From the IMG/VR virus record IMGVR_UViG_3300047195_000542, positions 1 through 20,225 of that record: 20,225 bases of DNA; one strand, written 5' to 3'. The notes beneath the pieces were generated by a model. It worked only from the letters and a program-made list of their open reading frames with translations, searched no databases and was not told the origin of the DNA. Positions 8 to 19,900 of this stretch are shown one piece after another. The DNA comes from a virus. The translations under genes were made by a program, and so were the position numbers. The first letter of the stretch is position 1; each line of letters opens with the position of its first letter.

Positions 8-598
8 TTAATTCTTATTAGCATATTCTGCCCTAATACTTTTTTCAAATATTTCATATTTGGTTGGAATCCAAAACTGGGGACATGTATATCTTTTGCC
101 CTTAGTTATTTCACGAACACCATGAATAAACATGTTATTTGATGGGAAAAATACTACTGTGCCTGCTTTGGGAATGAAGTCAATATCCTGATCTGGGAAA
201 TATATTTCTCCACCCTCATAGTCATCATTAAGATACATTACTGAGCCATAGTCAACTATATACGCTTCATTTGGATGACCCTCTGGATCTTCTCCATCTG
301 CATGCAAGGGTTGGTATTCTCCAACATTCCATTCTCTTATTCCTGGAAAACCTTCTTTTAGTGGTCTACCAAAGTGCATTTCAATTTCGTGTTGTAATTT
401 GTCCATAGCCTGCTTTAAAATATTAAATGCTTCTGGCTTATCATAAAAATTTCTAGAAACCTTATCTGGAATACCCTGAATGGTATTTGAACCCCAAATA
501 ATAGTTTCATCAATAGAGTCAACTATAAACTTACAATCTTTTTCAGAAATAAAGTTTTCAATAACAACCACATTTTTCTTTAAGCCTTTTTTTCTCAT
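8..598 (-). CDS. 2OG-Fe(II) oxygenase, prolyl 4-hydroxylase type (copy 1)
   Basis: Predicted 196-residue 2-oxoglutarate/Fe(II)-dependent dioxygenase with a double-stranded beta-helix fold. Family members couple 2-oxoglutarate decarboxylation to hydroxylation of a substrate, often a protein prolyl residue. The iron ligands are visible as H99-A-D101 and H159, and R169, ten residues after H159, is the expected 2-oxoglutarate C5-carboxylate ligand. The segments GGEIYFP (129-135) and VVFFPSN (148-154) are the usual core strands. It is the closest relative in the window of copy 4 on the opposite strand (shared HAD, GGEIYFP, GKR(Y/F)TCP and FW blocks). The start overlaps the stop of the 48-codon gene before it (TAATG), with AAGGAG 5 bases upstream. 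The substrate is not identifiable. The fold and active site are secure; the prolyl target is family inference. Confidence 0.9.
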   Translation of the reverse strand: MRKKGLKKNVVVIENFISEKDCKFIVDSIDETIIWGSNTIQGIPDKVSRNFYDKPEAFNILKQAMDKLQHEIEMHFGRPLKEGFPGIREWNVGEYQPLHADGEDPEGHPNEAYIVDYGSVMYLNDDYEGGEIYFPDQDIDFIPKAGTVVFFPSNNMFIHGVREITKGKRYTCPQFWIPTKYEIFEKSIRAEYANKN

Positions 599-744
599 TA
601 TTGCTCCTTTGCTATTTTTTCAATATCATCAAATAGTGAGTCATTTACCATTGATGCTAAAACAAAACAAATCCATCTATAAGAAGATTTTTCACAGTAA
701 CCCTTTGACTGCATTAGTTGTGCAATATCGTCAATTTTTTCCAT
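598..744 (-). CDS. 48-residue hypothetical protein between two oxygenase genes
   Basis: A short gene whose protein begins MEKIDDIAQL and ends IEKIAKEQ. It fills the gap between two oxygenase genes exactly. Its ATG shares one base with the stop of the preceding gene (TAATG at 742-746), and its TAA shares one base with the ATG of the following gene (TAATG at 596-600). GGAG lies 8 bases before its start. This double coupling and the ribosome site argue that it is really translated. The protein looks mostly alpha-helical and acidic at both ends, with two cysteines (C17, C26), and has no signal peptide or clear membrane segment. I do not recognise the family and assign no function. It could simply be a coupling peptide that carries ribosomes from one oxygenase gene to the next. 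Confidence 0.7.
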   Translation of the reverse strand: MEKIDDIAQLMQSKGYCEKSSYRWICFVLASMVNDSLFDDIEKIAKEQ

Positions 745-1265
745 TATTTATACTCCATAAAAAAATTAATAGCGTACCTAGTTCCAGACTTTACAATGTG
801 AGCAGTGTGAGCATATGGATAGTTTGAAGGAAATAAAACCATTGAGTTTTTTTGTGGTTTTACTTTAATGTCAAAGTTATTAAACTCAATCTCTCCTCCA
901 TCATAATTATCATTCAGATATATGACACAACTTGTAATTCTTGAAGCAACATGCTTTGAGCCATTGTCATAATGAGTTACATATTTTTCATCTGGCTCAT
1001 ACTTTAATGCTTCAATAATATTAAATTCAAGTTCTGGAATGTGATACTTATTGCAATAATTAATAACATTTGGTTTTACTGATTTTTCAACCATATCAAA
1101 AATTTCTGAATAAAGTTTCTTATCAGTTAAATAAATTACAGAATTAGAACGATCATCGTGACTAACATTTTCAGGACGAGTCCATTTAAATTTATTAAAT
1201 GTTTCAATCAACAATTCTGGATTTTCAAAAACATTATAATAAAACTCTATACCACTATTGTTCAT
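744..1265 (-). CDS. 2OG-Fe(II) oxygenase, prolyl 4-hydroxylase type (copy 2)
   Basis: Predicted 2-oxoglutarate/Fe(II) dioxygenase. Numbering from the longest frame, which starts at 1283, the iron ligands are H104-Y-D106 and H159, and R169 is the 2-oxoglutarate ligand. The H-to-R spacing of ten matches copy 1. Core strands are CVIYLNDNYDGGEIEF (119-134) and MVLFPSN (148-154). I prefer the second in-frame ATG (1265, M7), giving 173 residues: AAAGAG lies 6 bases before it, whereas the first ATG has no ribosome site. The overlap with the preceding DUF6065-like gene is then 11 bases. H162 also lies close to H159, but the conserved spacing favours H159 as ligand. Substrate unknown. Confidence 0.88.
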   Translation of the reverse strand: MNNSGIEFYYNVFENPELLIETFNKFKWTRPENVSHDDRSNSVIYLTDKKLYSEIFDMVEKSVKPNVINYCNKYHIPELEFNIIEALKYEPDEKYVTHYDNGSKHVASRITSCVIYLNDNYDGGEIEFNNFDIKVKPQKNSMVLFPSNYPYAHTAHIVKSGTRYAINFFMEYK

Positions 1266-1974
1266 TTTGAACTCTTTGATCATTAGTATTTAATTTTATC
1301 TTTTTTACTTCATGCTCACCAATTTTATTTTCAAACTGGTCTACTGCACTTCTATAAAAATCGGACCATTTAGGAATTTTGTTATTTTCAAGAATAACAT
1401 TTCCATACTCCGTTAATCTCTTATTATAATCATTAAGTTTATATGGACTACTGTTTAATGTCATTGTTGAATTATTTAACTCACTCAAAGATATAGGAAT
1501 GACAGCCATGAAAGGCTCATTTGCCTTAAAGGTTATTGGAACATTTGGTTTTGTAATTTTCCAAGATACAGGAATTGGACTATCCCAAAAACTTGTACTA
1601 ATAATATTTGATAATGGAGTTGCTCCATCTATAACCAGGTTAGGTGGTCCAAAAAACAACAAACTTACATTTGGATCTGTTTTAAAAAACCAACCAATGT
1701 TAAAGATTAAAGTTGCTGTTCCTCTATTTGTATCAACAAATTCTTTTCCTTCAATAACTTCTATGTGATTTCCCTCTGAAGAATCATTTCCATCCCAAAC
1801 AACAGTTATATCTTTAGGAAATGAAAAACCCCAACCCATCTGATTTGTTAAAGATAATGGGAAGCATCTATAAGCGTGGCCGTCAAAAGTTTTGTCCATC
1901 CACTCCCTTTTCATTGGCAGTTGTTCTAATTTTGCTGCGCCAGGAAAAATTTGATATGCTTCAACATTATACAT
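1255..1974 (-). CDS. DUF6065-like protein
   Basis: A 239-residue protein that I recognise as resembling the DUF6065 family of uncharacterised proteins. Family-like features are an N-terminal AYQIFPGA block (6-13), a REWMD block (24-28), HAYRCFPLSLTNQMGW (33-48), VVWDG (58-62), a central GWFFKT...FFGPPN stretch, and W/P-rich strands later on. It has no catalytic motif known to me, no signal peptide and no membrane segment. It lies between two oxygenase genes of the same strand: its ATG directly follows the stop of copy 3 (TAAATG) and its end overlaps copy 2. This placement suggests it works with the oxygenases, perhaps as a partner or substrate-handling protein, but that is inference from position only. 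The family assignment is from memory and could be checked by a profile search. Confidence 0.72.
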   Translation of the reverse strand: MYNVEAYQIFPGAAKLEQLPMKREWMDKTFDGHAYRCFPLSLTNQMGWGFSFPKDITVVWDGNDSSEGNHIEVIEGKEFVDTNRGTATLIFNIGWFFKTDPNVSLLFFGPPNLVIDGATPLSNIISTSFWDSPIPVSWKITKPNVPITFKANEPFMAVIPISLSELNNSTMTLNSSPYKLNDYNKRLTEYGNVILENNKIPKWSDFYRSAVDQFENKIGEHEVKKIKLNTNDQRVQNEQ

Positions 1975-2640
1975 TTATTCTGTTGGCCTATTTCTTAATA
2001 TTTCATTTTCTCCATGAGTTCTGCCATTATAATCAAACATTGTAACTGCAGAATACTTTATTCCTTCTTCAACTGGAAGAGCAGCATGAGAATATATAAA
2101 GTTTGAAGGGAATAACACAATATCTCCTTCTTCTGGTTGATATGTATAATTTAAGTATGGGAAATGTAGTCCACCACCAGTAAAATTATCATTTAAATAC
2201 ATAACTGTTGAAATTGTGCATACATAACTAAATCCATGATCTGCATGAACACCAAAATGATGCCCTGGTCCATATTTAACAAAATTAACTGCTTCTTGAT
2301 ATTTCATTTGAACATTATACATAGAACAATAATGCTCTAAACAAGATTGAAGCCTAACATCAATGTCATTATAAATATTTTTTAGATCTGATTTAAAAGC
2401 AATTTCTCGCATTTTAATATCATCTTTTCTTACTTTAAAATCTACACAATCACGATAATCTTTCATAGTTTGATAATCGCCTACTTGGGCTTCAGACCAT
2501 TTAAACCAAGGGTCTTTGTCTTTATTTTCTTCAATTGCATTTTCTAGTCTTTGAACTAGATCTAATTCTCTATTAAGTGTGTTCCTATATATATACACAC
2601 CATTGGCTGGATTTAATACTTCAATATTGTTTGTTTCCAT
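1975..2640 (-). CDS. 2OG-Fe(II) oxygenase, prolyl 4-hydroxylase type with Lys 2OG ligand (copy 3)
   Basis: Predicted 221-residue 2-oxoglutarate/Fe(II) dioxygenase, the longest of the five in the window. Iron ligands are H132-A-D134 and H185. The residue ten positions after H185 is K195, where the other copies have arginine. Lysine at this place is known in animal collagen prolyl 4-hydroxylases, so the site can still bind 2-oxoglutarate. Core strands are TVMYLNDNFTGGGLHFPY (145-162) and IVLFPSN (174-180). The first hundred residues form an extra helical N-terminal part. The ATG has a strong AAAGGGG ribosome site about 6 bases upstream, and it is the first gene of the leftmost minus-strand operon, behind its own promoter candidate. 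Substrate unknown. Confidence 0.9.
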   Translation of the reverse strand: METNNIEVLNPANGVYIYRNTLNRELDLVQRLENAIEENKDKDPWFKWSEAQVGDYQTMKDYRDCVDFKVRKDDIKMREIAFKSDLKNIYNDIDVRLQSCLEHYCSMYNVQMKYQEAVNFVKYGPGHHFGVHADHGFSYVCTISTVMYLNDNFTGGGLHFPYLNYTYQPEEGDIVLFPSNFIYSHAALPVEEGIKYSAVTMFDYNGRTHGENEILRNRPTE

Positions 2641-2671
2641 TATTTTCCCCTTTATTCCCTTTTCTTTTTTA

Positions 2672-2683
2672 ATTATACACCAT
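2672..2683 (-). promoter_or_regulatory. Promoter candidate for the left oxygenase operon
   Basis: On the minus strand this reads ATGGTGTATAAT: a perfect TATAAT -10 box (2672-2677) preceded by an ATGG element one base further away than at the other promoter sites in the window. It sits about 30 bases before the start of copy 3 and leaves room for a leader with the AAAGGGG ribosome site. I see no convincing -35 box. Confidence 0.5.
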
Positions 2684-2707
2684 AAACATCTTTTTATTAA
2701 ATAACTT

Positions 2708-2718
2708 AATGATATACT
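2708..2718 (+). promoter_or_regulatory. Extended -10 promoter candidate, leaderless start
   Basis: AATGATATACT, with the -10 hexamer TATACT at 2713-2718. It ends exactly 6 bases before the ATG at 2725, so transcription should begin at or within a base of the start codon and give a leaderless mRNA. There is no Shine-Dalgarno sequence before the ATG. The element differs by one base from the one at 6266-6276, which has the same spacing to its ATG. Confidence 0.55.
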
Positions 2719-2724
2719 ACTAAT

Positions 2725-3321
2725 ATGACAGAAAACAAAATATCTATTATTCCCTCTGGCTATTATGGAAAATCTGAAAAAAATATTGTAATCATAAATA
2801 ATTTTATTAAAGATAAAGATTTAAAAACAATAAAAAATTTTTGTTTTACTATAGATAAATTTTTATCTATTCCAGGGGATAACTGGGATAATCGTGTTTG
2901 CGACAATAATATTTTAAGAAATATAGGATCTGAAATAGAATCGCTTCTTAGTCAATATCAAGCAAAACATAAAAAAATAATTGAAGAGTTTTTTGAGGTT
3001 GAATTACGAGAAAATGTTCCGAGTATTGTGATTTGGAGACCTGGGGATTCTCAACCACCTCATGCAGATAAGGAAAATCTAGATGGATCTCCAAATTATT
3101 ATCCAGAAAATGACATTGCTTCTCTTTTTTATTTAAATAACGAATATGTTGGAGGAGAAATTTATTTTCCTATACAACACTTAAAACTTAAATTATCTGC
3201 AGGTGATGCAGTATTTTTCCCTGGTGATATTAATTATCAACATGGGGTAACTGAGGTTACTGAAGGTAAACGATTTACATGTCCTGCTTTTTGGAATGTT
3301 ACAAAAAATAAAAAACTTTAA
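2725..3321 (+). CDS. 2OG-Fe(II) oxygenase, prolyl 4-hydroxylase type (copy 4, plus strand)
   Basis: Predicted 198-residue 2-oxoglutarate/Fe(II) dioxygenase. Iron ligands are H113-A-D115 and H173, and R183 is the 2-oxoglutarate ligand. GGEIYFP (143-149) and AVFFPGD (162-168) are core strands. It closely resembles copy 1, so the two probably arose by duplication or repeated acquisition. It is the only oxygenase on the plus strand. It is divergent from copy 3 across an 84-base gap holding both promoters, and convergent with copy 5, with 4 bases of overlap between the two stop regions. Its ATG appears to be leaderless. Base composition looks even more AT-rich than its neighbours. Its orientation and private promoter suggest an independently acquired cargo gene. 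Confidence 0.9.
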   Translation: MTENKISIIPSGYYGKSEKNIVIINNFIKDKDLKTIKNFCFTIDKFLSIPGDNWDNRVCDNNILRNIGSEIESLLSQYQAKHKKIIEEFFEVELRENVPSIVIWRPGDSQPPHADKENLDGSPNYYPENDIASLFYLNNEYVGGEIYFPIQHLKLKLSAGDAVFFPGDINYQHGVTEVTEGKRFTCPAFWNVTKNKKL

Positions 3322-3333
3322 TCTTTTTTGTAA
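3299..3333. terminator. AT-only inverted repeat at the convergent gene ends
   Basis: TTACAAAAAA (3299-3308) and TTTTTTGTAA (3324-3333) are perfect inverted repeats around a 15-base loop, placed where copies 4 and 5 converge. The long A and T runs would give a U-tract on both strands, so it could act as a weak bidirectional terminator. The stem has only one G-C pair per strand and lies inside coding sequence, so this is tentative. Confidence 0.3.
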
Positions 3334-3908
3334 ATGGTTGATGCCAAGGAATATCTATTTCCTTCTATCATTGCTAATACGCCGTGACGAACATTTCCTC
3401 TATGAAAAACAACGGATCCTTCTTCTGGTTTATATTTAAAATTGTATTTTGGATAATGAATTTGTCCACCTAAGTAATTGCTATTTGGATATATTACTGC
3501 TCCCCAAAAAACTTCTCTTCCGTACCCATTAAGTTCTTGATTATCTGTATGATAAAACATTTCTATATGTTGGTTTTCTCTTTCTGGAAAAGGATGAGAA
3601 CCATTCCACATTTTTATACAATTAAGTTCTTTTAATTCCCAGTCATTTTCTTCATAAGTTTTTAATACTTCTAATGTTCTTTTTTTTATGTTATTTAAAA
3701 TAACATTAACATCATCAAAACTTTTTTCATAACCAGGCAAAGTTGTAGTATCGTCATTTCTAATTAATCTTTTTTGCCAGAAAGTTACCTCATGTTTTGG
3801 CAAATCCGCATAATTAAAATCATTCATCCATTTTGTAATTGTTTGACATTCTTCTTTAGATAAAAAATCTTTTTTAATTAATATATTCCCATTAGCAAGA
3901 ATTTCCAT
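3318..3908 (-). CDS. 2OG-Fe(II) oxygenase, prolyl 4-hydroxylase type (copy 5)
   Basis: Predicted 196-residue 2-oxoglutarate/Fe(II) dioxygenase, more divergent than copies 1 and 4. Iron ligands are H120-T-D122 and H175, and R185 ten residues later is the 2-oxoglutarate ligand. Core strands are AVIYPNSNYLGGQIHYP (137-153) and VVFHRGN (166-172). The N-terminal half contains a tryptophan-bearing helical region (W27, W44, W90, W101). Its ATG lies 11 bases after the stop of the Hint-domain gene, with TAGGA about 6 bases upstream, so it is the last gene of the operon that also makes the proline-rich Hint protein. That co-transcription is the best contextual clue to a substrate, but remains inference. 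Confidence 0.88.
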   Translation of the reverse strand: MEILANGNILIKKDFLSKEECQTITKWMNDFNYADLPKHEVTFWQKRLIRNDDTTTLPGYEKSFDDVNVILNNIKKRTLEVLKTYEENDWELKELNCIKMWNGSHPFPERENQHIEMFYHTDNQELNGYGREVFWGAVIYPNSNYLGGQIHYPKYNFKYKPEEGSVVFHRGNVRHGVLAMIEGNRYSLASTIYKKD

Positions 3909-3919
3909 TTTATTCCTAA

Positions 3920-5287
3920 TTACTTATTGTGTGTAATAATGTCGCCAGCAATAATTAAATCTTGTGGCTCTGCGCTAAATATATAAACTGGTTGTTTTTC
4001 AAACTCAACATCAATTGTTTCAATAACAACTTCATCATAGATATTTGTTTCGCTATTATATTTTAGAATTATGTCGCCTTCATTAATTTCAGAAATCATA
4101 GCAAATTGCCATACAGTATTATTATCAATGTCTAAAGTCTTAATTAAAATTGGATGCTCTGCTGTAAATTGAGCAGTTTTATCTCCATTGAAATAAAGCA
4201 TTTGTGTTTTAAGTGATTCATCAATATCAACAATGGTTGTGGATGTATGATCTTGGAAATTCATAGTTGGAGAACTCCATGAGAATACTGCATAGTCTGG
4301 TACACTTGAGTCAAATTCATCATAAATTGCTGAAAGAACTTCATCTCCAATTTTAATATCTTTGGCTTTCTTTGCAACAATTTTGCCATCAGAATCAATC
4401 AGAACTTCAAGTCCAGTTTCTGGATCTGTAAATAATGATCCAGCACCAATTCCTACACGCACAAACGTTTCTGCAGAAATACATTTAACTCCATAAACAC
4501 CTCTAATTGGTCCACCAATAAATGTAGGTGGGAATGGAGGAGCAAATGGAGGGGCAAATGGAGGAGCAAATGGAGGGGCAAATGGAGGGGCAAATGGAGG
4601 AGCAAATGGAGGAGCAAATGGAGGGGCAAATGGAGGTGGGAATGGAGGAGCAAATGGAGGGGCAAATGGAGGTGGGAATGATGGAGGTGCAACAGGTGTT
4701 GCAGAATTAGATGCAGCAGATGGCAAAGATACTCCATTAGCATTTGTTGCAGTTACTGTAAATGTGTATGCAGTTCCATTACCAAGACTTGTTACTGTAA
4801 TTGGACTTGTTGTGTTTGTTCCAGTTATTGACCCTGGAGAAGAAGTTGCTGTATAACCAGTGATTGTTGATCCGCCAGTTGCATTTCCTGAAAATGTAAT
4901 AGTTGCCGTTGCGTTTCCTGCAGTAGCAGTTCCAATTGTTGGGGCTTGTGCAACAGTTGTAGACGTAATGCTATTAGATGATAAAGATGCAGATCCTGGT
5001 CCAACTGCTGTAGTTGCAGTTATCGTAAATGTATATGCTGTTGCTGACTGCAGCCCTGCTACAGTTACTGGAGAAGTTGCTCCAGTTCCAGTGAACGACC
5101 CTGGGGAAGAAGTAACTGTGTAACCAGTAATTGGAAGTTTTCCATTAAATCCTGGAGCAGTAAAAGATACAGTTGCTAATCCATTGTTAAATGCACGGGT
5201 TGAGCCAGTATCTGATGCAGTACCTATAGTTGGAGCAAGTGGAGTAGATTTAGTTGATGAGGAAACAATTCCAGGAATAATAGCCAT
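3920..5287 (-). CDS. Fibronectin-III / proline-rich rod / Hint (intein-like) domain protein
   Basis: A 455-residue modular protein (numbered from the chosen ATG at 5287; the frame runs on to an ATG at 5317). Two fibronectin-III-like repeats (about 20-115 and 116-200) share ITGYT..SSPGS.TGT and SP.TV..L..GTAYTFT. Residues 201-256 are fourteen XPPF tetrapeptides, mostly APPF. The C-terminal part, 269-455, is a Hint domain: it opens with C269, then GDEVLS, then AEHPIL with H378 (block B), then VYIF and a terminal THNK with H453-N454. There is only lysine after the HN, so no Ser/Thr/Cys extein nucleophile is present, as in some bacterial intein-like domains. Family members cleave or splice themselves. 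The start at 5287 is chosen because it shares a base with the upstream stop (TAATG). It is probably a virion surface or adhesin protein; the processing outcome is unknown. Confidence 0.82.
   Translation of the reverse strand: MAIIPGIVSSSTKSTPLAPTIGTASDTGSTRAFNNGLATVSFTAPGFNGKLPITGYTVTSSPGSFTGTGATSPVTVAGLQSATAYTFTITATTAVGPGSASLSSNSITSTTVAQAPTIGTATAGNATATITFSGNATGGSTITGYTATSSPGSITGTNTTSPITVTSLGNGTAYTFTVTATNANGVSLPSAASNSATPVAPPSFPPPFAPPFAPPFPPPFAPPFAPPFAPPFAPPFAPPFAPPFAPPFAPPFPPTFIGGPIRGVYGVKCISAETFVRVGIGAGSLFTDPETGLEVLIDSDGKIVAKKAKDIKIGDEVLSAIYDEFDSSVPDYAVFSWSSPTMNFQDHTSTTIVDIDESLKTQMLYFNGDKTAQFTAEHPILIKTLDIDNNTVWQFAMISEINEGDIILKYNSETNIYDEVVIETIDVEFEKQPVYIFSAEPQDLIIAGDIITHNK
4520..4687. repeat. 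12-bp tandem repeat encoding (XPPF)14
   Basis: Fourteen copies of a 12-base unit, on the plus strand GGAGGAGCAAAT or GGAGGGGCAAAT, with GTGGGA variants. On the minus strand it encodes the APPF/PPPF rod of the Hint-domain protein. Adjacent units are nearly identical in DNA, so copy number can change by slippage in whole tetrapeptide steps without breaking the frame. The plus-strand open frame over the same DNA is a by-product of the repeat. Confidence 0.92.
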
Positions 5288-6198
5288 TATGCTACAAGGT
5301 CTCCAATCGCAATCCAAGTATCAGTTGCACGTTTAATTAAAGTACAAGATGACCACTGAGTTCTAAGTTTACCAGCATTTGTGGAAGATTGTGGAGTACA
5401 ATTTAATGTTACTCCAGATGTAACAGCCAAGGAAGTTTGTCCAGTATTTGTTTGAATGATTGTTATTTGTGTTCCAATAGCAAATGAAACAGAAGAGTCT
5501 AATGGAATGTTTACAACATTAGCAGAAGTACTTGACATTTCTACAATTTTTGCTTCATCTGCAGCAACCAGTGTATATGAAGCAGTTCTAGCATTTGTTT
5601 CTACTGTTGATAAAACAATTGTTCCTGATCTATTTGGTAATACGATTATTCTATCTGCCGTTGGATCAATGACTGTTAGGGTAGTTTCATATATATCATT
5701 TGTCGCCCCTTCAAAAATTATTGAAGAATCGGATAATTGAAGAGAAGATACTATTGGACCAACTAAAGTTTTATTTAAAAGTGTTTCAGAACCTGCTGCG
5801 GTAACTTCTGGCATTGTCCAAGAAAGTCCAGTTGTTGCAGCAGAGTTTGCAGTTAAAACTGTTCCATTGGCTCCAACAGAAATATTAGCAGGTGTAGAAG
5901 GTGCAGTTGCTGTTACCAAAGATCCTTTTGCAGTCCAAGTTGATGCGACCACACCAGTAACAATTGAATCAATCTCATTTTGCAAAGTATACAATGCATG
6001 GGCTATAGAAGGATTTTTTAAGTTTGCTGGATTTGTATTTGATGGACTATATTGCCCAACACCAGATCCTGATGGTGCTCCATAATGATATAGTCTGAGG
6101 GCTTCTTGAATATCAGCATTATCTGAAAGAGATGGGACAAGTGTATTAACATTAAAGGACGTTAGTCCAGTAATAGCACTTCCAATATTTTCTGACAT
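5287..6198 (-). CDS. Tail fibre protein without collagen repeats
   Basis: A 303-residue phage structural protein. The N-terminal 80 residues (YHYGAP, then NPSIAHALYTLQNEID) look like a fibre attachment region. Residues 88-128 (WTAKGSLVTATAP, then VGANGTVLTANSA, then GLSW) form a segment common in fibre proteins of actinobacterial and aquatic phages. The last hundred residues (TASYTLVAADEAKIVEM, IGTQITII, KLRTQWSSCTLIK, TWIAIGD) match the C-terminus of the protein encoded at 8483-9295, so both carry the same terminal head domain. AGGAGG lies 10 bases before the ATG behind an extended -10 promoter candidate. It is the first gene of the operon that continues into the Hint-domain protein and copy 5. 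Likely a receptor-binding or side fibre; the exact role is unknown. Confidence 0.8.
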   Translation of the reverse strand: MSENIGSAITGLTSFNVNTLVPSLSDNADIQEALRLYHYGAPSGSGVGQYSPSNTNPANLKNPSIAHALYTLQNEIDSIVTGVVASTWTAKGSLVTATAPSTPANISVGANGTVLTANSAATTGLSWTMPEVTAAGSETLLNKTLVGPIVSSLQLSDSSIIFEGATNDIYETTLTVIDPTADRIIVLPNRSGTIVLSTVETNARTASYTLVAADEAKIVEMSSTSANVVNIPLDSSVSFAIGTQITIIQTNTGQTSLAVTSGVTLNCTPQSSTNAGKLRTQWSSCTLIKRATDTWIAIGDLVA

Positions 6199-6282: not shown

Positions 6283-6384
6283 ATGGAGAATCTAGTTCAA
6301 AAATCTGTTAAACATGGAGGCAAATTAGCCCCATTAAGGACTTACAAGCGGAACTGGTTTAATGAATCCTTCCGTATTTGTTGA
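6283..6384 (+). CDS. 33-codon frame, probable displaced N-terminus of the following gene
   Basis: The frame starts at the ATG set exactly 6 bases after the -10 box and reads MENLVQKSVKHGGKLAPL before continuing as RTYKRNW... to a TGA at 6382-6384. It overlaps the start of the next frame. The following frame, read backwards from its first ATG at 6362, stays open to 6338 and encodes GLTSGTGL. Skipping one A at 6337 (within 6331-6340) would join the two as ...KLAPL-GLTSGTGL-MNPSVF..., giving a protein of about 332 residues. The most likely readings are a one-base insertion or assembly error, or a programmed +1 frameshift. A separate leader peptide coupled to the next gene cannot be excluded. Confidence 0.55.
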   Translation: MENLVQKSVKHGGKLAPLRTYKRNWFNESFRIC

Positions 6385-7282
6385 CAACGATGGTGATATT
6401 TTGGTAAACCTTCGTCATGTCAATTACACCTTATATCATTCTGAAAATAATCAAATGTTTCCTTCAAAATGGGGTCCTTTATCATACCTTCATCCAGAAG
6501 CAGATAGGAATCTTAGAACAACTAACTATATTTGTCGTTTAGATGATGATCTTAATATGACAGATTATTCAGTTATTGATACTACCTTGCTTGATGTTCC
6601 GCCAAAATGGGAATTTGTTGGTGAAGAAGATTGTCGCCTTGTTCAATGGGATAACAAATATTATGCTGTTGGAGTTCGTAGAGATACAACTCCGCATGGT
6701 CAAGGTCGCATGGAATTGTCAGAAATTGAGATCAATAAAGAAAATTGGTCTGCAAAAGAAATATCTAGAATAAGAATTCCTGCGCCAGGACCTGATGAAA
6801 GTTATTGTGAAAAAAATTGGGTACCAGTAAATGATAAACCATATCATTTTATTAAATGGACATCCCCATCAGAACTAGTAAGAACATACCCAGATCTTCC
6901 AGAAAGATGCGAACAAGTATCACATAAAAATACACTTACACCTCCTACAGATCAAAGAGGTAGTTCTCATTTAGTTCGTTGGGGAAGCATGTATATATCT
7001 ATTACTCACGAAGTTAATTTATTTAAGAATTACCTTGGACAAAAAGATGGTATTTACAGACATAGACTATGTGTTTGGGATGATCAATTAAATCTTGTTG
7101 GATTATCTAAAGAACCATTTTCATTTTTAGATGCTCGTATTGAATTTTGTGCAGGAGCAGCAGTTCATAATGGAGACCTTCTAATATCTTTTGGTTTTCA
7201 AGATAACGCTGCATTTGTGCTTAGAACGCCTAAGTTAGTTGTTGAAGATATGATATTGGAGGCTTTATCTTATGGAAATTGA
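6362..7282 (+). CDS. Beta-propeller glycoside hydrolase/phosphorylase-like protein (GH130/GH43-like)
   Basis: A 306-residue protein (about 332 if joined to the 6283 frame) with the repeating strand pattern of five-bladed beta-propeller sugar enzymes. Family-like landmarks are GEEDCR (87-92, compare GxEDPR in GH130), EKNWVP (150-155), RGSSH (199-203), THE (215-217), YRHR (232-235), IEFCAG (260-265) and ISFGFQDNAA (275-284). Enzymes of this fold cleave or phosphorolyse glycosidic bonds. I cannot name the substrate, and it may be a non-catalytic sugar-binding relative. No ribosome site precedes the ATG at 6362, which argues that translation really begins at 6283. It overlaps the next gene by 11 bases and heads a cargo operon opposed to the structural genes, so modification of host or virion glycans is plausible. 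Confidence 0.62.
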   Translation: MNPSVFVDNDGDILVNLRHVNYTLYHSENNQMFPSKWGPLSYLHPEADRNLRTTNYICRLDDDLNMTDYSVIDTTLLDVPPKWEFVGEEDCRLVQWDNKYYAVGVRRDTTPHGQGRMELSEIEINKENWSAKEISRIRIPAPGPDESYCEKNWVPVNDKPYHFIKWTSPSELVRTYPDLPERCEQVSHKNTLTPPTDQRGSSHLVRWGSMYISITHEVNLFKNYLGQKDGIYRHRLCVWDDQLNLVGLSKEPFSFLDARIEFCAGAAVHNGDLLISFGFQDNAAFVLRTPKLVVEDMILEALSYGN

Positions 7283-7838
7283 AAATCTTATTTATGATCT
7301 TTCATATGATCCTTTTAACCCGTCTTTAAATTTTGAGGTTGCAAAGAAATATGAAGAACTACAACAAACTGCATCTGCAGTATCATTTTATTTAAGAGCA
7401 GCAGAATATGGCTATGCATCAGATCCTTTGATTGCATATTCATCTTTACTTAGAGTTTCAATTTGTTTTGAAGATCAAAATGATAGAAATAACACAATAA
7501 CAAATTGCCTACTTCAAGCAATTCAATATCTTCCAGATAGACCAGAGGGGTATTTTCTTTTATCTAGGTTTCATGAACGTGCTACTAACTGGCAAGAGTC
7601 TTATACATTTGCAGAACTTGGATTAATGTTTAGCAAACAAGAAGAATCTCTTCCAATTAATGTTGACTATCCTGGCGAATATGGACTAACATTTCAAAAG
7701 GCAGTTGCTGCTTGGTGGATTGGAAGACTAAATGAGTCTGTCATGTTGTTGAAAACATTAAAAGAAAATCCTAAAGTTTCTGAAGCATACATGTATTCTA
7801 TTAATAGCAATTTGGAAAAAATAAATGTTGCTGTTTGA
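7272..7838 (+). CDS. TPR-like helical repeat protein
   Basis: A 188-residue, mostly alpha-helical protein with tetratricopeptide-like helix pairs at about 17-48, 53-88, 91-122 and 140-165 (A..Y..A.., YFLLSRFHE, A.LGL..). The stretch DYPGEYGLTFQKAVAAWW (132-149) resembles a segment I associate with TPR modules fused or adjacent to glycosyltransferases in phages and bacteria. It has no catalytic motif and no signal peptide. GGAGG (7258-7262) lies 9 bases before the ATG. It overlaps the propeller gene by 11 bases and the methyltransferase gene by 14, so the three are made together. A scaffold or partner role for the two enzymes is inferred from this context. Confidence 0.68.
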   Translation: MEIENLIYDLSYDPFNPSLNFEVAKKYEELQQTASAVSFYLRAAEYGYASDPLIAYSSLLRVSICFEDQNDRNNTITNCLLQAIQYLPDRPEGYFLLSRFHERATNWQESYTFAELGLMFSKQEESLPINVDYPGEYGLTFQKAVAAWWIGRLNESVMLLKTLKENPKVSEAYMYSINSNLEKINVAV

Positions 7839-8481
7839 TATTGGAGCAAATAGAGGAGATGCAACTCTTGCTGGATTATCTCAAGGGTATAAAGTAATAG
7901 CACTAGAACCTGGATCAAGAGTATTTAAACAATTAGTCTCAAACTTTATATATAATCCTATGGTTATTCCAGTTAAACTTGCTGTATCTGATTCAGACAA
8001 CCAATCTATAGAGTTTTACGAGTGTATTGAGGACGGACTATCAACTATAGAGAAGTCGTGGCTTACAGACCCTTCTATGCCTTATAACGGTAAGGAATAC
8101 AGGACTGTTAATGCTACAACTATAACTATTGATACCCTTGCAAAAATATACGGAAAGCCTGATCTAATTAAGATAGATGTTGAAGGTGCTGAGTGGTCTG
8201 TATTTAATGGAATGACAGAAAAATATGGAAAAATAACATTTGAGTGGACTTATGAAACTCTTTCTGAACATGAAAAACAATTAAAATATTTAAAGAATCT
8301 TGGTTATGAATTCTTTGCTCCACAGTTTATTGAAAATCATTTACAAGAACCATTAAATTGGTATCCAATAGGTAGCCTAACAAAATGGGTAAAATCTAAT
8401 TCTCAAAGATGGATTGATGGAGAGTGGAAAAACTCTAATCTAAGACCCACAGCAGATGTTGGAATGGTTTGGGTTAGATAG
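7825..8481 (+). CDS. FkbM family methyltransferase
   Basis: A 218-residue S-adenosylmethionine-dependent methyltransferase of the FkbM family. Motif I is FDIGANRGD (4-12), the acidic end of beta-2 is LEPG (27-30), and the family hallmarks TIDTLA (101-106) and LIKIDVEGAEW (114-124) are clear. FkbM enzymes O-methylate small molecules and sugars, including surface glycans. The protein starts almost directly at motif I, so it lacks the N-terminal helices present in many members and is near the short end of the family. The C-terminal 60 residues (NWYPIG...WIDGEWKNS...) look like a substrate cap. It is last in the cargo operon and ends one base short of the convergent fibre gene. A role in methylating a host or phage glycan is inferred. 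Confidence 0.88.
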   Translation: MLLFDIGANRGDATLAGLSQGYKVIALEPGSRVFKQLVSNFIYNPMVIPVKLAVSDSDNQSIEFYECIEDGLSTIEKSWLTDPSMPYNGKEYRTVNATTITIDTLAKIYGKPDLIKIDVEGAEWSVFNGMTEKYGKITFEWTYETLSEHEKQLKYLKNLGYEFFAPQFIENHLQEPLNWYPIGSLTKWVKSNSQRWIDGEWKNSNLRPTADVGMVWVR

Positions 8482-14030: not shown

Positions 14031-16949
14031 TTAAACCACCTGCTCAATAGTTACAAAGATTGCACCAGTTGTATTGGCTCCAGATTGAGCATATGATATT
14101 TTTAAGTAGTTAATTACTGTTGTATCAACTGTTTGTGCAGTTGCAACACCTGTTGCTGGAGTTAAGGATGTAGTTGCAGTAAGAAGGTTTGTTCCTCCAC
14201 CAGACATTGTTCCACCAGTACCTATTGATCTAACTGTAAACATCCAGTCAATAACAGATGAAACTGTAGCCACTGCTGCAGCACGAGACCATGTTGCTAA
14301 AATATTTCCAGTACCTGCTGTTGATGCTGTTCCTATTCTTGCAAAATAGGCATCTGTAGAAGATACCGTACCAGTACGATCAACCATCGCTCTTACTCTA
14401 TAAGTGCTTCCAATTTGAAGATAGTTTTGTGGAATTTGAAGTGTTGCAAGATTTAATTCACCAGTTGTAGTATATGTTGTTGCTACAGATGAAGATGAAC
14501 TTAGATTAGATGATAATTTAACAAAGTTAACGTTAGACTGTCCAATACCAAAAATACCACCAGCGGTTAGAGTACATTGCCAAGTAGTTCCACCATTTGT
14601 ACTTGATCCAATTGCTTGATTTGGTCCACCAATAACTTGAACTAATGATGCAGCAAGTTTATCTGCTGTATTAGCATCATTATCTCTTGCAAGAATAACG
14701 TGTCCAGATGTTCCAGCACTAAGTCCATCATCTGTAACAATCCAGATACCATTTTGATAAGCAGATGCTTGATCTTTAAGAAGAATGCGATCATCAAATG
14801 CAACTTGGTATCCATCAACAGTCATTGAACCTGCTGCAGTTAAAATCATGTAATCTGAAGGAGTTTGAGGATCAATATCTATAACTCCTTGTTCTATATC
14901 TCCAAGGACTGTTGCTGTTCCTGGATTTGAACTATTCGTAATTGTAAATTTAGGAACTACGGCTGTTGCTGTAGATGTTGCTCCTGTTGCAGCATTAGTT
15001 ACTGTAAATTGTGTTCCAGTTGCACTAGCAATAGTTGCATTAACTAAATTATATGCAGCGGTAGTTGCTCCAGTAATATTAACTGTATCTCCAGCGGTAA
15101 AAGTATTAACTGCTGTATAAGTAACTGTTCCAGCAGAAGCAGATATTGCAGTAACTGGAGCGGTAAATACTGAAGCAACTGTCCATGCTCCATTATATAC
15201 TGATGGAGTAATTTCATCAATTTCAACTGGTTGGCCTGCTGTCAAAGTATATCCTGGATAAGGAATATTTGCTGCAGACCCATCATATGTAATAGTCCAT
15301 GTTGTAGAATTTGATGTAATTGAAGTTGGAAGTATCATTACACCCTTGACATATGTACTTATTGGATAATCTATTTTAGATGCTGCTGTTACTGGTTCAT
15401 GAACGTTTAACTGAATGTATTTAGGCGCATTGACTCCATAACCACCATATGACATAAGAAATTCTCCAGCACGTCCTGTGCCAGGGGCTTGAACCATAGT
15501 ATTCCAAACAATTGGATCATCTCCTAGTGTTCCAGCACCATTTACATATGTGGTAAATGATTGTCCAGCATTAACATCTCCTTCAATAACTTGAACAATA
15601 GATGCTGGAAATTTTCCAATTTCATTCATATCATTATCACGAGAAAATTTTGCTGATACTCCTGCTGCACCTGCAGTGGTGCAAATCCAAATACCGTTTT
15701 CAGACTCATTTGTTTGATCTTTAAATAAAACTCTATCATCTAGTGCAACTGGAATTGTATCAACATAGCAAATTCCAGAAGATGTTATATAAAATTCATC
15801 ACCTATAACATTTGGATCAGTTTCTATATCTCCTTGAATTGCATTTCCAAAAATTGTTCCTGGTCCAGGATTTCCTGTTTGAGTAATCACAAATTGAGTA
15901 GTACTTGCTGATGATACTGTCCATGTTCCATTATAAGCAAGTGGTGTACAACCGCTAATAGTAATTTCTTGTCCAACTGCTGGTTTATATGTAGCAAATG
16001 GTGCATTAGTATAAGTAAATGTCCAAGTAGATGAATTAGATGATATAGCAGATATGTTTAATTCTGCTCCAATTATATATGTACCAACTAGTTCAGCAGA
16101 TGTTGCTACTAATACTGGTTCGTGCACGTTTAACTGTACAAATTGTGGTGCATGAACACCATACCCGCCATATGACATAAGAAACTCGCCTGCACGACCT
16201 GTTCCACCAGTCTGAACAATATTATTATAAACAATTGGAGATGTTCCTAAAATATCACTTTCTGCAAAGTAAGTTGTAAACATCTGACCACCGTTAATTA
16301 AACCATTTTGTACCTGTGCAAGAGCACAAGCAATTTTGCTAGCGGTATCTGAATCATTATCACGAACAAAAATTGTTACTTGACCAAGTGGGTTTGCTGG
16401 ATCTTCTCCAACATCTTCTCCTTCTTGCATAACTACATAAATACCATTTTGAATTGGATCATTTTGATCTTTAATTAAAACACGGTCATCAAGTTCAAGT
16501 TCAACTCCATCAATAAAAGTATGGCCAATGACATTCATTGTTAGTGAAGAAGCAATAACTGGATAGTCACCTTCTGTAATATTTGCATTATTATATGTTG
16601 CATCAAGGTGTGTAGTAGTTGCTACGTGAATAGATTCTTTAATAGAAACGTCAACCATCCGTGGTCCGCCATTAACAATATCACCATAGGACATTAAAAA
16701 TTGTCCAGCAGTACCTGATTCATTTTGACTAGCAGTTCCAGTAGCAGATCCAAAAACAACTGCTCCAGGTGTAAGACCAGTCAGTGTAGCAGGGGATGCA
16801 TAGTCAAGAACGTTCCAAAGGTCAGTTCCATTTCCAATTTTCCAATAACCTGTGTCTAACTCAAGACCCATTTCTCCTTCTGAAAGAAGAGTATTTGCAG
16901 CAGTCCACTCACTGGCTGTGCCACGTCTAAATTGAATCTTTGTTGTCAT
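14031..16949 (-). CDS. Large modular tail fibre/adhesin with three repeated domains
   Basis: A 972-residue adhesin (numbered from the ATG at 16949). The N-terminal 60 residues (TTKIQFRRGTASEW, then LLSEGEMGLELDTGYWKIGNG) are the phage fibre N-terminal module seen in tropism-determinant-like proteins. Three homologous modules follow at about 81-247, 251-487 and 492-812. Each begins with G(T/R)AG(Q/E)FLMSYG and contains DDR(V/I)L(I/F/L)KDQ, NGI(Y/W) and RDND landmarks. Modules 2 and 3 carry inserted Ig-like beta-domains, and module 3 has a second one nested inside the first. Residues 813-972 are a beta-rich C-terminal domain (GSTYRVRAMVDR, YFARIGTAS). The start at 16949 shares a base with the preceding stop (TAATG), and GGAGG lies 6 bases upstream; the longer frame from 16964 lacks this support. 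There are no collagen repeats. Confidence 0.84.
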   Translation of the reverse strand: MTTKIQFRRGTASEWTAANTLLSEGEMGLELDTGYWKIGNGTDLWNVLDYASPATLTGLTPGAVVFGSATGTASQNESGTAGQFLMSYGDIVNGGPRMVDVSIKESIHVATTTHLDATYNNANITEGDYPVIASSLTMNVIGHTFIDGVELELDDRVLIKDQNDPIQNGIYVVMQEGEDVGEDPANPLGQVTIFVRDNDSDTASKIACALAQVQNGLINGGQMFTTYFAESDILGTSPIVYNNIVQTGGTGRAGEFLMSYGGYGVHAPQFVQLNVHEPVLVATSAELVGTYIIGAELNISAISSNSSTWTFTYTNAPFATYKPAVGQEITISGCTPLAYNGTWTVSSASTTQFVITQTGNPGPGTIFGNAIQGDIETDPNVIGDEFYITSSGICYVDTIPVALDDRVLFKDQTNESENGIWICTTAGAAGVSAKFSRDNDMNEIGKFPASIVQVIEGDVNAGQSFTTYVNGAGTLGDDPIVWNTMVQAPGTGRAGEFLMSYGGYGVNAPKYIQLNVHEPVTAASKIDYPISTYVKGVMILPTSITSNSTTWTITYDGSAANIPYPGYTLTAGQPVEIDEITPSVYNGAWTVASVFTAPVTAISASAGTVTYTAVNTFTAGDTVNITGATTAAYNLVNATIASATGTQFTVTNAATGATSTATAVVPKFTITNSSNPGTATVLGDIEQGVIDIDPQTPSDYMILTAAGSMTVDGYQVAFDDRILLKDQASAYQNGIWIVTDDGLSAGTSGHVILARDNDANTADKLAASLVQVIGGPNQAIGSSTNGGTTWQCTLTAGGIFGIGQSNVNFVKLSSNLSSSSSVATTYTTTGELNLATLQIPQNYLQIGSTYRVRAMVDRTGTVSSTDAYFARIGTASTAGTGNILATWSRAAAVATVSSVIDWMFTVRSIGTGGTMSGGGTNLLTATTSLTPATGVATAQTVDTTVINYLKISYAQSGANTTGAIFVTIEQVV
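14036..14041 (-). promoter_or_regulatory. Ribosome binding site deciding a TTG start
   Basis: AGGTGG on the minus strand, inside the last codons of the large adhesin gene and 7 bases before the TTG at 14028. It supports TTG as the start of the 683-residue fibre gene. Confidence 0.65.
14865..15323 (-). other. Nested Ig-like insert in module 3 of the adhesin
   Basis: This segment of the adhesin gene codes for an inserted beta-domain (SITSNSTTWTITY ... GVIDID) that is homologous to the insert in module 2 at about 15825-16052. About 14955-15167 is a further insertion of roughly 70 residues (APVTAISAS ... TATAVV), placed between TVASVF and KFTITN where module 2 reads continuously. The inner piece itself follows the same pattern (GTVTYT, F.AGD.V.I.G, AYN, TQFTVT), so it looks like a copy of the domain inside a copy of the domain. 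Confidence 0.65.
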
Positions 16950-19900
16950 TATATTCCTCCACAATCAATTACTGGTATTCCGCCGTAAACACTGTTTGCG
17001 ACTCCACCATCTAAACTAATATTTGCTGGTCCTTGCGGTCCAACATATCCGCTTGCAATGGTCTCTACCCAATTATACCCTACTCCATCATAAATATATG
17101 TAAATTCTATACCATAATTTGAATTTACCCATCTATCTCCAACTAACAATCCTGTTGTTGGTGCAGATGATTGATAATAATAATGTGTTACTGGTGCTCC
17201 TTCTGTACCCTGCAATCCTTGGGTTCCAAGTAATCCCTGAGTTCCTTGAAGTTGAGCATAACCAAACCCTTGTATACCAGTATTTCCTTGAATACCTTGG
17301 GTACCTTGTAATCCACGATCTCCAATATCTCCAGTACGAGCAAATGTTAGTGTTAATATTTCATCTTGAGTAAATGTTGTAACTGTTCCAGAAACATATG
17401 CAATTGGTACTTCAAAGTGATCATCATCTTCTATATGATTTCCAACAATACTTAAAAATACATAATTAAGTGGATTTGTTTGGCTTGTTACTTTTATATT
17501 TCCCTTAATAGCAGATGTTGAATCATCAATTGTTTGCAAGAAAGATGTTACATCTATATCATTCATATCAACAATGCTAATATCAATTGCTACTGCTGTT
17601 GTTACATTCACTACGTCAAACTCTATATACCCTGGAGATAATGCAACACTAACATTGTATGGATCGTCATTAAATTGGAAATCAAATGATGCTCCTCCAA
17701 ATGATCCTGTTAACCCTTGAACACCAATATGACCCTGAATGCCTTGAGTTCCTTGAATACCTTGTGTTCCTTGTGTTCCAAAATTTCCCTGAATTCCTTG
17801 TATTCCTTGTGTTCCTTGAGAACCTATAAATCCTTGAGTACCAACATCTCCTTGGACACCTTGTGTACCTTGGGCTCCTGTGCTACCCTGTAAACCTTTA
17901 TCTCCTTGAATGCCTTGTATACCTTGAGCACCTTGAATACCTTGAACACCTTGTACACCTTGAGCACCTCTTTGTCCTTCTGCTCCTTGGATTCCCTGAA
18001 TACCTTGTATTCCAAAATTACCTTGAAGTCCCTGGAGACCTTGAGTTCCTTCTGCCCCTTGAATTCCTTGAATACCCTGAGTTCCCTGTAAACCATCTGT
18101 ACCTTGAATTCCTTGTGTACCTTGAATTCCATTTATTCCTTGAACACCTTGGATACCTTGAGTTCCTTGAACTCCCTGAGTTCCTTCAACTCCTTGGACC
18201 CCTTGTGTTCCTTGCAAACCTTGTGTACCTTGAGTGCCATCTGTGCCTTGAGTACCTTGACGACCTTGTATTCCTTGTGATCCAATAGTTCCTTGAATTC
18301 CTCTTGGACCTTGTCCACCTTGTGTTGCATCTTCAAGTGCAACATAATCAATTTTAGTTTCATGTCCAACATGTCCTGCAGAAAAATGGTAGAAACGTAA
18401 AGAAACATTTCCAGCATTAATATAAGGGTCAGAGTAAATAACTCCTAGTGTAAACTGAGTCCAGTTAGAAAGACCATTGTATCTTCCAATTTCTTCCCAC
18501 TCACTTGTTAACCAATTGTAAACTTGAATTTCAATAAGGTGTGATGAAGTGTTTGTATAGTTAACACTTATAACAACTCTATTAAATCTTGTTACGTCTG
18601 TAAATCCAATATTTGTAATATACCCTGGGGTTGTGTCAGTATCAAGAACTTGGAAATAATATCCATCTCCATAATCACCAAATGTAGCAATATCAGAAAC
18701 ACTTCCATATGTTGATGTTCCATATCCTGGTTCTAGTGCAATAGAACTTGCAAGATATGTTGTTGTTTCTGGAAGAGGTCCTACCTCACCTTGTAAACCT
18801 TGATTTCCTTGTATACCCTGAATTCCTTGAGAACCCTGAGTTCCTTGGACACCTTGGACACCTTGAGTACCCTGAGTACCTTGTGTTCCTTGTACTCCTT
18901 GAATACCTTGTTCTCCAGTAAAACCTTGTATACCTTGAACTCCTTGGGAACCTTTAATACCCTGTATGCCTTGTGTTCCTTGCGAACCAGTTATTCCTTG
19001 AGATCCAATTATTCCTTGATTACCCTGAATACCTTGCAAACCAGTTTGACCTTGTATTCCAGTTGTTCCCTGAATACCAACGGCAGTGGTAACTAAAATA
19101 ACATTATGGTTATTATTAAACCCAGTTAAACCAGTTCCTAAACCATCTACATAAATTACTGGAACTTGTACATAATCATTATTTCCAGGATTGATTGTTC
19201 CATTAACTTTAAATTGTTGATAGTTACTAGAATTGTTTGCATCTTGAATAAAGATATTATCATTAAGTTGTAATAGTGATAGGAATAAATCTATATCAAC
19301 AACATCTGCTGTTAAGTGACTAATATAAAGTGTAGTAGCACTAGTTTGTGTAACATTGTTATATTTTATATGACCGTTAGTTGGTTGTGAGTTAGTTATA
19401 TCATTATTAGTTATTTGATAATTAAAGTAACTAGAAGAAACTCCACTTGCACCAGTTACACCTTGTATGCCTTGTGAACCAAGTAAACCTTGAACGCCCT
19501 GAGTACCATTATTTCCTTGAATACCTTGTAATCCATCATTACCCTGAATTCCTTGAATACCGTTTGTTCCCTGAATTCCTTGAATACCTTGAGTACCTTG
19601 ACTTCCAGTAATTCCTTGATTTCCATTAATACCTTGAATACCTTGTAGTCCTTGAGACCCCTGTATTCCTTGAGTGCCATTAACTCCTTGATTTCCTTGA
19701 ATACCATTTGTTCCTTGTGAACCTTGAAGTCCATCTAATCCTTGAAGACCACGAATACCTTGTGTACCTCTAAATCCTTGAGCACCTTCTAATCCTTGTG
19801 CTCCGTCTGATCCAACATATCCATCAGTTCCTTGTAAACCTTCAAAACCTTGAATTCCATCTGTGCCTTGAATACCTTGTATGCCATCTAAACCTTGCAC

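Follow-up and report, generated by a model that had tools for sequence, protein, structure and literature searches.

The cluster of five 2OG-Fe(II) oxygenase genes described here probably forms a virion-modification module that hydroxylates the proline-rich stalk of an adjacent FN3 tail-type protein. This proposal is based on the genes that accompany such clusters in related viral loci, on the conserved active sites and on the predicted fold of one of the enzymes.

The window analyzed is a viral DNA fragment of 20,225 bases (IMG/VR record IMGVR_UViG_3300047195_000542). The count of five refers to this fragment and not to the whole phage, and thus cannot be claimed as the full set of oxygenases of the phage. 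The markers phrog_2, gp23 and Terminase_6N gave no placement of the phage lineage.

Gene layout and conservation of the oxygenases

On the minus strand, collagen-like fibre genes are followed by a fibre with an Mtd-type N-terminus, more fibre genes, the FN3 protein and the oxygenase cluster. The features in and next to the cluster are as follows.

8–598, minus strand: oxygenase A, a P4H-like 2OG-Fe(II) oxygenase (196 aa; PF13640, 38.7 bits; H99/D101/H159/R169)
598–744, minus strand: conserved small gene (48 aa; orthologue in the same place in L005, L006, L015–L017, L019 and L020)
744–1283, minus strand: oxygenase B (179 aa; PF13640, 63.3 bits; H104/D106/H159/R169)
1255–1974, minus strand: putative DUF6065 partner protein (239 aa; PF19541, 137 bits, E 8e-40; predicted dUTPase-like beta-clip fold)
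1975–2640, minus strand: oxygenase C (221 aa; PF13640, 47.1 bits; H132/D134/H185/K195)
2725–3321, plus strand: oxygenase D (198 aa; PF13640, 33.4 bits; H113/D115/H173/R183)
3318–3908, minus strand: oxygenase E (196 aa; H120/D122/H175/R185; phrog_2297, E 1e-10)
3920–5287, minus strand: FN3 – Pro/Phe stalk – Hint-like tail-type protein, the proposed substrate (455 aa; PF00041, E 1.6e-14)
4520–4687, minus strand: (PPFA)n stalk of the FN3 protein (30 Pro in 56 residues)
3920–4483, minus strand: Hint/intein-like domain of the FN3 protein, 3' of the proline stalk (terminal THNK; weak Pfam match, E 0.019)
5287–6198, minus strand: fibre-type protein 5' of the FN3 gene (PHROG tail and unknown families)

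A TTG at 5317 was considered as start of the FN3 gene and dropped in favour of the ATG at 5287. The gene is located directly upstream of oxygenase E, and apart from its (PPFA)n stretch the window contains nothing proline-rich. Overlaps of 1–29 bases occur between adjoining gene ends in the cluster. Elsewhere in the fibre region, a trio of plus-strand genes (6362–8481) encodes an unknown protein of 306 aa, a TPR-like protein of 188 aa and an FkbM methyltransferase of 218 aa. The Mtd_N-type N-terminus (PF18454, E 2e-12) belongs to the fibre at 14031–16964.

The HxD...H iron triad and the basic 2OG ligand are present in all five oxygenases; the coordinates and every residue named in the initial annotation were confirmed, as was the embedding of the 48-codon and DUF6065-like genes in the cluster. 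The five copies are adjacent, as had been described, but they do not share a common strand, since D is encoded on the plus strand, tail to tail with E. Oxygenases A–D pass the curated cut-off of PF13640 (33–63 bits). E is below this cut-off, with matches to phrog_2297, phrog_274 and phrog_61 (E 1e-10 to 1e-5) in addition to the full triad. The labels carried by phrog_2297, phrog_274 and phrog_3531 ('DNA endonuclease', 'DNA endonuclease V' and 'ferrochelatase') match oxygenases with the full 2OG motif at 8–3908 and are likely mislabels.

A tree built from 89 oxygenases places A, B, C and D in separate supported clades, each with orthologues in other phages. The copies are divergent as well as intact. 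The triad and the basic ligand are invariant across the orthologues (nine for A, six for B, nine for C including K195, and eight for D). Between phages, omega is approximately 0.1–0.4 for A–D, an estimate that is only approximate because dS is high in many pairs. These low values and the invariant residues indicate old, maintained and distinct enzymes. As judged from their sequences, A–D are thus separately conserved under purifying selection, and recent identical duplication, which a phylogeny had been suggested to detect, is contradicted. E is the most divergent of the five and lies outside the conserved block described below; its sole relative in the block is a gene of 267 aa in L020–L023. 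A search of viral contigs for close relatives of E and B found none. Among the matches listed, none of 69 loci around collagen-like phage genes has at least three 2OG genes within 6 kb, and the clustering of the five genes is therefore not chance.

Oxygenase C was the one enzyme modelled (pLDDT 90, pTM 0.87). The model has the double-stranded β-helix (DSBH) fold of the P4H/PHD type. Its best Foldseek matches include the algal P4H in complex with (Ser-Pro)5, PHD2, the Pseudomonas EF-Tu prolyl hydroxylase and the P4H of PBCV-1. A profile of C built with bacterial neighbours matches the B. anthracis P4H at 2.5e-15. Structure prediction confidently assigns C to the protein prolyl-hydroxylase fold. 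PolD also appears among the fold matches, so the P4H-type fold leaves the substrate unfixed.

Oxygenase clusters and the proline-rich stalk

Scanning viral contigs for DUF6065 yielded 21 loci, most of which are arranged as D, C, DUF6065, B, small gene, A. D is mostly transcribed divergently, as it is here; in L015 and L016 it is co-directional with the rest. B is absent from L015 and L020–L023. In L013 and L014, C and DUF6065 occur alone amid other, siphovirus-like genes. Most relatives keep the small gene in its place between B and A, and it is found even without B (L020); it has no family match.

An FN3 gene with (PPPF)n, similar to that of the window, is present in most block loci. In L016 the proline-rich gene is at the opposite end of the block, with other genes between. 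No proline-rich FN3 gene was found in the 11.6 kb of L020, which has the block, or in the 8 kb of L013 and L014. These loci count against the proposal. Hint-like ends resembling that of the window FN3 protein occur in L017, L019 and L469.

Since the focus on proline arose from the block loci, two further sets served as tests. FN3 proteins were collected from viral contigs by a pattern involving neither proline nor oxygenases and were dereplicated. Among the matches listed, an oxygenase is present within 6 kb of 15/20 proline-rich FN3 proteins vs 3/50 others (Fisher p 1e-8). The five proline-rich proteins without one lie at or near the downstream edge of their contig or of the stretch analyzed. 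When at least 2 kb of downstream sequence is available, 2OG genes follow 14/14 proline-rich FN3 proteins vs 1/35 others among the matches listed (p = 2e-11). These p-values describe dereplicated loci, which are not independent origins because the phages have common ancestry. Collagen-like fibre genes served as controls, and 2OG genes are downstream of none of the 37 among the matches listed.

The second set, a scan for PFFPPFFPPFF, gave 2OG genes within 4 kb downstream of 51 of the 64 proteins listed as matches, accompanied by DUF6065 in 43; the remaining 13 have no 2OG gene in that range. In a scan for PPFPPPFPPPF, the matches listed comprise, after dereplication, 12 ORFs of 150 aa or longer, nine of them with 2OG genes no more than 6 kb away. 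Among the three exceptions, L160 has the block just past 6 kb, and L171 and L176 are not FN3-type. The oxygenases are downstream and in the direction of the FN3 gene, and none was found upstream among the proline-rich genes tested. Since such clusters follow the proline-rich stalk almost every time, the enzymes probably modify it.

In L491, L485, L447 and L380, 7 to 11 oxygenases come after a proline-rich FN3 gene. Genes resembling GPx, SDR, TauD or sulfotransferase are found inside such large clusters (also in L343, L467 and L477).

The alternative that survives best, although we regard it as unlikely, is action on host targets or metabolites (for example translation factors, envelope glycans or 2-oxoglutarate levels): the oxygenases would then be auxiliary metabolic genes merely placed in a variable tail region. 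This is the published view for the 2OG genes of cyanophages (PMC9602691), the bacterial P4Hs matching C act on EF-Tu, and the accessory genes of the larger clusters would fit it. It leaves unexplained, however, why 2OG genes follow proline-rich FN3 genes and not other FN3 or collagen-like tail genes.

DUF6065

The DUF6065 protein of the window matches PF19541 with 137 bits (threshold 26.6 bits) and covers profile positions 2–178 of 236. The partnership with oxygenases extends to bacteria. Bacterial loci (80 among the matches listed) were taken with an oxygenase pattern blind to DUF6065 and ranked by likeness to B. In 14 of these a DUF6065 gene is located beside the oxygenase; one of them, L027, resembles a phage contig. 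In some alphaproteobacteria, DUF6065 and a PF13640 oxygenase form a single polypeptide (L058 and L094), or DUF6065 is fused to a Cupin_8/JmjC domain, another oxygenase class (L118 and L098). This adjacency and the fusions indicate that the partnership is general, and by its gene context DUF6065 is a recurrent partner of 2OG oxygenases.

Searches for DUF6065 in genome contigs with peptide patterns confirmed none, and the bacterial cases came via the 2OG loci. No DUF6065 was found in INPHARED phages, and neither DUF6065 nor the FN3-stalk protein had a match in 50,697 phage records at the sensitivity used. A literature search found no paper naming DUF6065.

Stand-alone DUF6065 genes adjoin a gene for aminoacyl-tRNA editing (YbaK/ProX type) in four alphaproteobacterial loci; its identity is based on Pfam in L143, L146 and L148 and on sequence likeness in L144. 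In a Verrucomicrobiales contig (L038, L042), about nine 2OG oxygenase genes surround a DUF6065 gene. The 2OG–DUF6065 pair of L049, a MAG titled Klebsiella pneumoniae, resembles those of environmental Gammaproteobacteria, and the title is probably a mislabel.

The model of DUF6065 (pLDDT 75) has dUTPases as top matches in Foldseek (probability 1.00) and VIA-align (Z up to 11). A dUTPase-like beta-clip fold is thus predicted. The RGxGGFG P-loop and other dUTPase motifs were not found, and the protein of the window has no GG pair. Comparison of the DUF6065 and dUTPase profiles was not significant, as 21/200 shuffles score as high. The score being within the range of the shuffles, assignment as a dUTPase by sequence was ruled out and only a dUTPase-like fold is claimed. 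A remote relative of DUF6065, phrog_7084 (hhalign probability 92), is present in haloarchaeal viruses and in many larger clusters. It adjoins thymidylate synthase in HSTV-2; in HRTV-14 it sits where the tail module ends, close to a ribonucleotide reductase gene (L126, L127).

The fold, these neighbours of phrog_7084 and weak matches to Tet_JBP could be read as modification of nucleotides or DNA by DUF6065 and the oxygenases. This is improbable: besides the missing P-loop motif and the non-significant profile match, C matches protein hydroxylases far better, and the cluster sits among tail genes.

Proposed function and comparison with known systems

The data are best accommodated by modification of the stalk. 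We infer that the oxygenases are catalytically active, with proline as the modified residue and the stalk as substrate. Several non-redundant, prolyl-hydroxylase-like enzymes would hydroxylate prolines of the PPFA, PPPF and PFFP repeats, with DUF6065 as a helper partner. The phage might benefit from hydroxyl groups that stiffen or alter the stalk or that anchor further groups. Phe is as regular as Pro in the repeats, which counts against a proline-specific reading. The interpretation of the initial annotation is partly supported: the genes that accompany the clusters suggest a single type of target, namely the proline-rich stalk of the adjacent FN3 protein, a link that the annotation did not draw.

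The window's collagen-like fibres as targets, as in animal collagen, are a very improbable option, suggested by four collagen-like genes upstream and by matches of the C profile to structures of collagen P4H and lysyl hydroxylase, and rejected on the control scan above and on composition, as the largest fibre has one Pro and two Lys in the Y position of 203 triplets (Y is taken by Gln in these fibres), which makes these fibres poor substrates; furthermore, long collagen repeats are missing near the same block in relatives.

A more elaborate version of stalk hydroxylation is conceivable but speculative. By analogy with the hydroxyproline-rich glycoproteins of plants and algae, each P4H-like enzyme might take a subset of the prolines in PPPF, PFFP and PPFA, the dUTPase-fold DUF6065 or phrog_7084 might present or hold the stalk, and the hydroxyprolines might in some lineages be glycosylated by a PF11397 glycosyltransferase. 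PF11397 genes adjoin C/DUF6065 or the cluster, or lie close by, in L013, L192/L168 and L518/L544. The Dictyostelium enzyme that attaches GlcNAc to a hydroxyproline of Skp1 presumably belongs to this family; a literature search gave no confirming paper. The presence of PF11397 in few lineages makes this family a suggestive lead only, and it was rejected as a general part of the module.

Phage 2OG oxygenase genes are abundant and tend to be catalogued as metabolic genes without a known use. An adjacent, specific and chemically sensible substrate brings the question of viral P4Hs within reach of a test by peptide and mass spectrometry. If true, the proposal would also give a first clue to what DUF6065 does; this family occurs in fusions with two 2OG oxygenase classes. 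The linkage to the stalk and the DUF6065 partnership appear to be new; literature searches, with most subscription journals outside their scope, found no paper tying oxygenase clusters to a proline-rich tail protein.

Among bacterial enzymes, PPHD (PDB entry 4iw3) and the B. anthracis P4H (5hv0, 5v7y) come nearest to C in both fold and profile; unlike the enzymes proposed here, they act on EF-Tu. The bacterial DUF6065–2OG operons and fusions likewise have DUF6065 beside or joined to an oxygenase; they differ in usually having one of each, and no tail genes were seen with them. The viral P4H vCPH of PBCV-1 uses proline-rich non-collagen repeats. To our knowledge, PBCV-1 has one such enzyme.

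Many 2OG genes per phage are already known, and the view that several of them are unusual in themselves is not supported: cyanophages commonly carry one to five and S-SCSM1 has 24 (PMC9602691), and one locus of the present study has 11. The cyanophage genes (phrog_61) belong to the same superfamily, with many divergent copies per genome (PMC9602691), but they are scattered in the regions seen, have less than 60% identity to C, and no stalk link is reported for them. A viral P4H and hydroxyproline in PBCV-1 are known as well (PMC9301287): the title of Eriksson et al. 1999, as cited there, reports 4-hydroxyproline in viral proteins and peptide substrates. According to the same survey, the viral use of prolyl 4-hydroxylase 'remains cryptic' (PMC9301287). 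PBCV-1 vCPH (PDB entry 5c5t) is a virus-encoded enzyme of P4H fold and among the best matches of C. It belongs to an algal virus, whereas the present clusters are from tailed phages, comprise three to eleven enzymes each and adjoin DUF6065 and a proline-rich FN3 gene.
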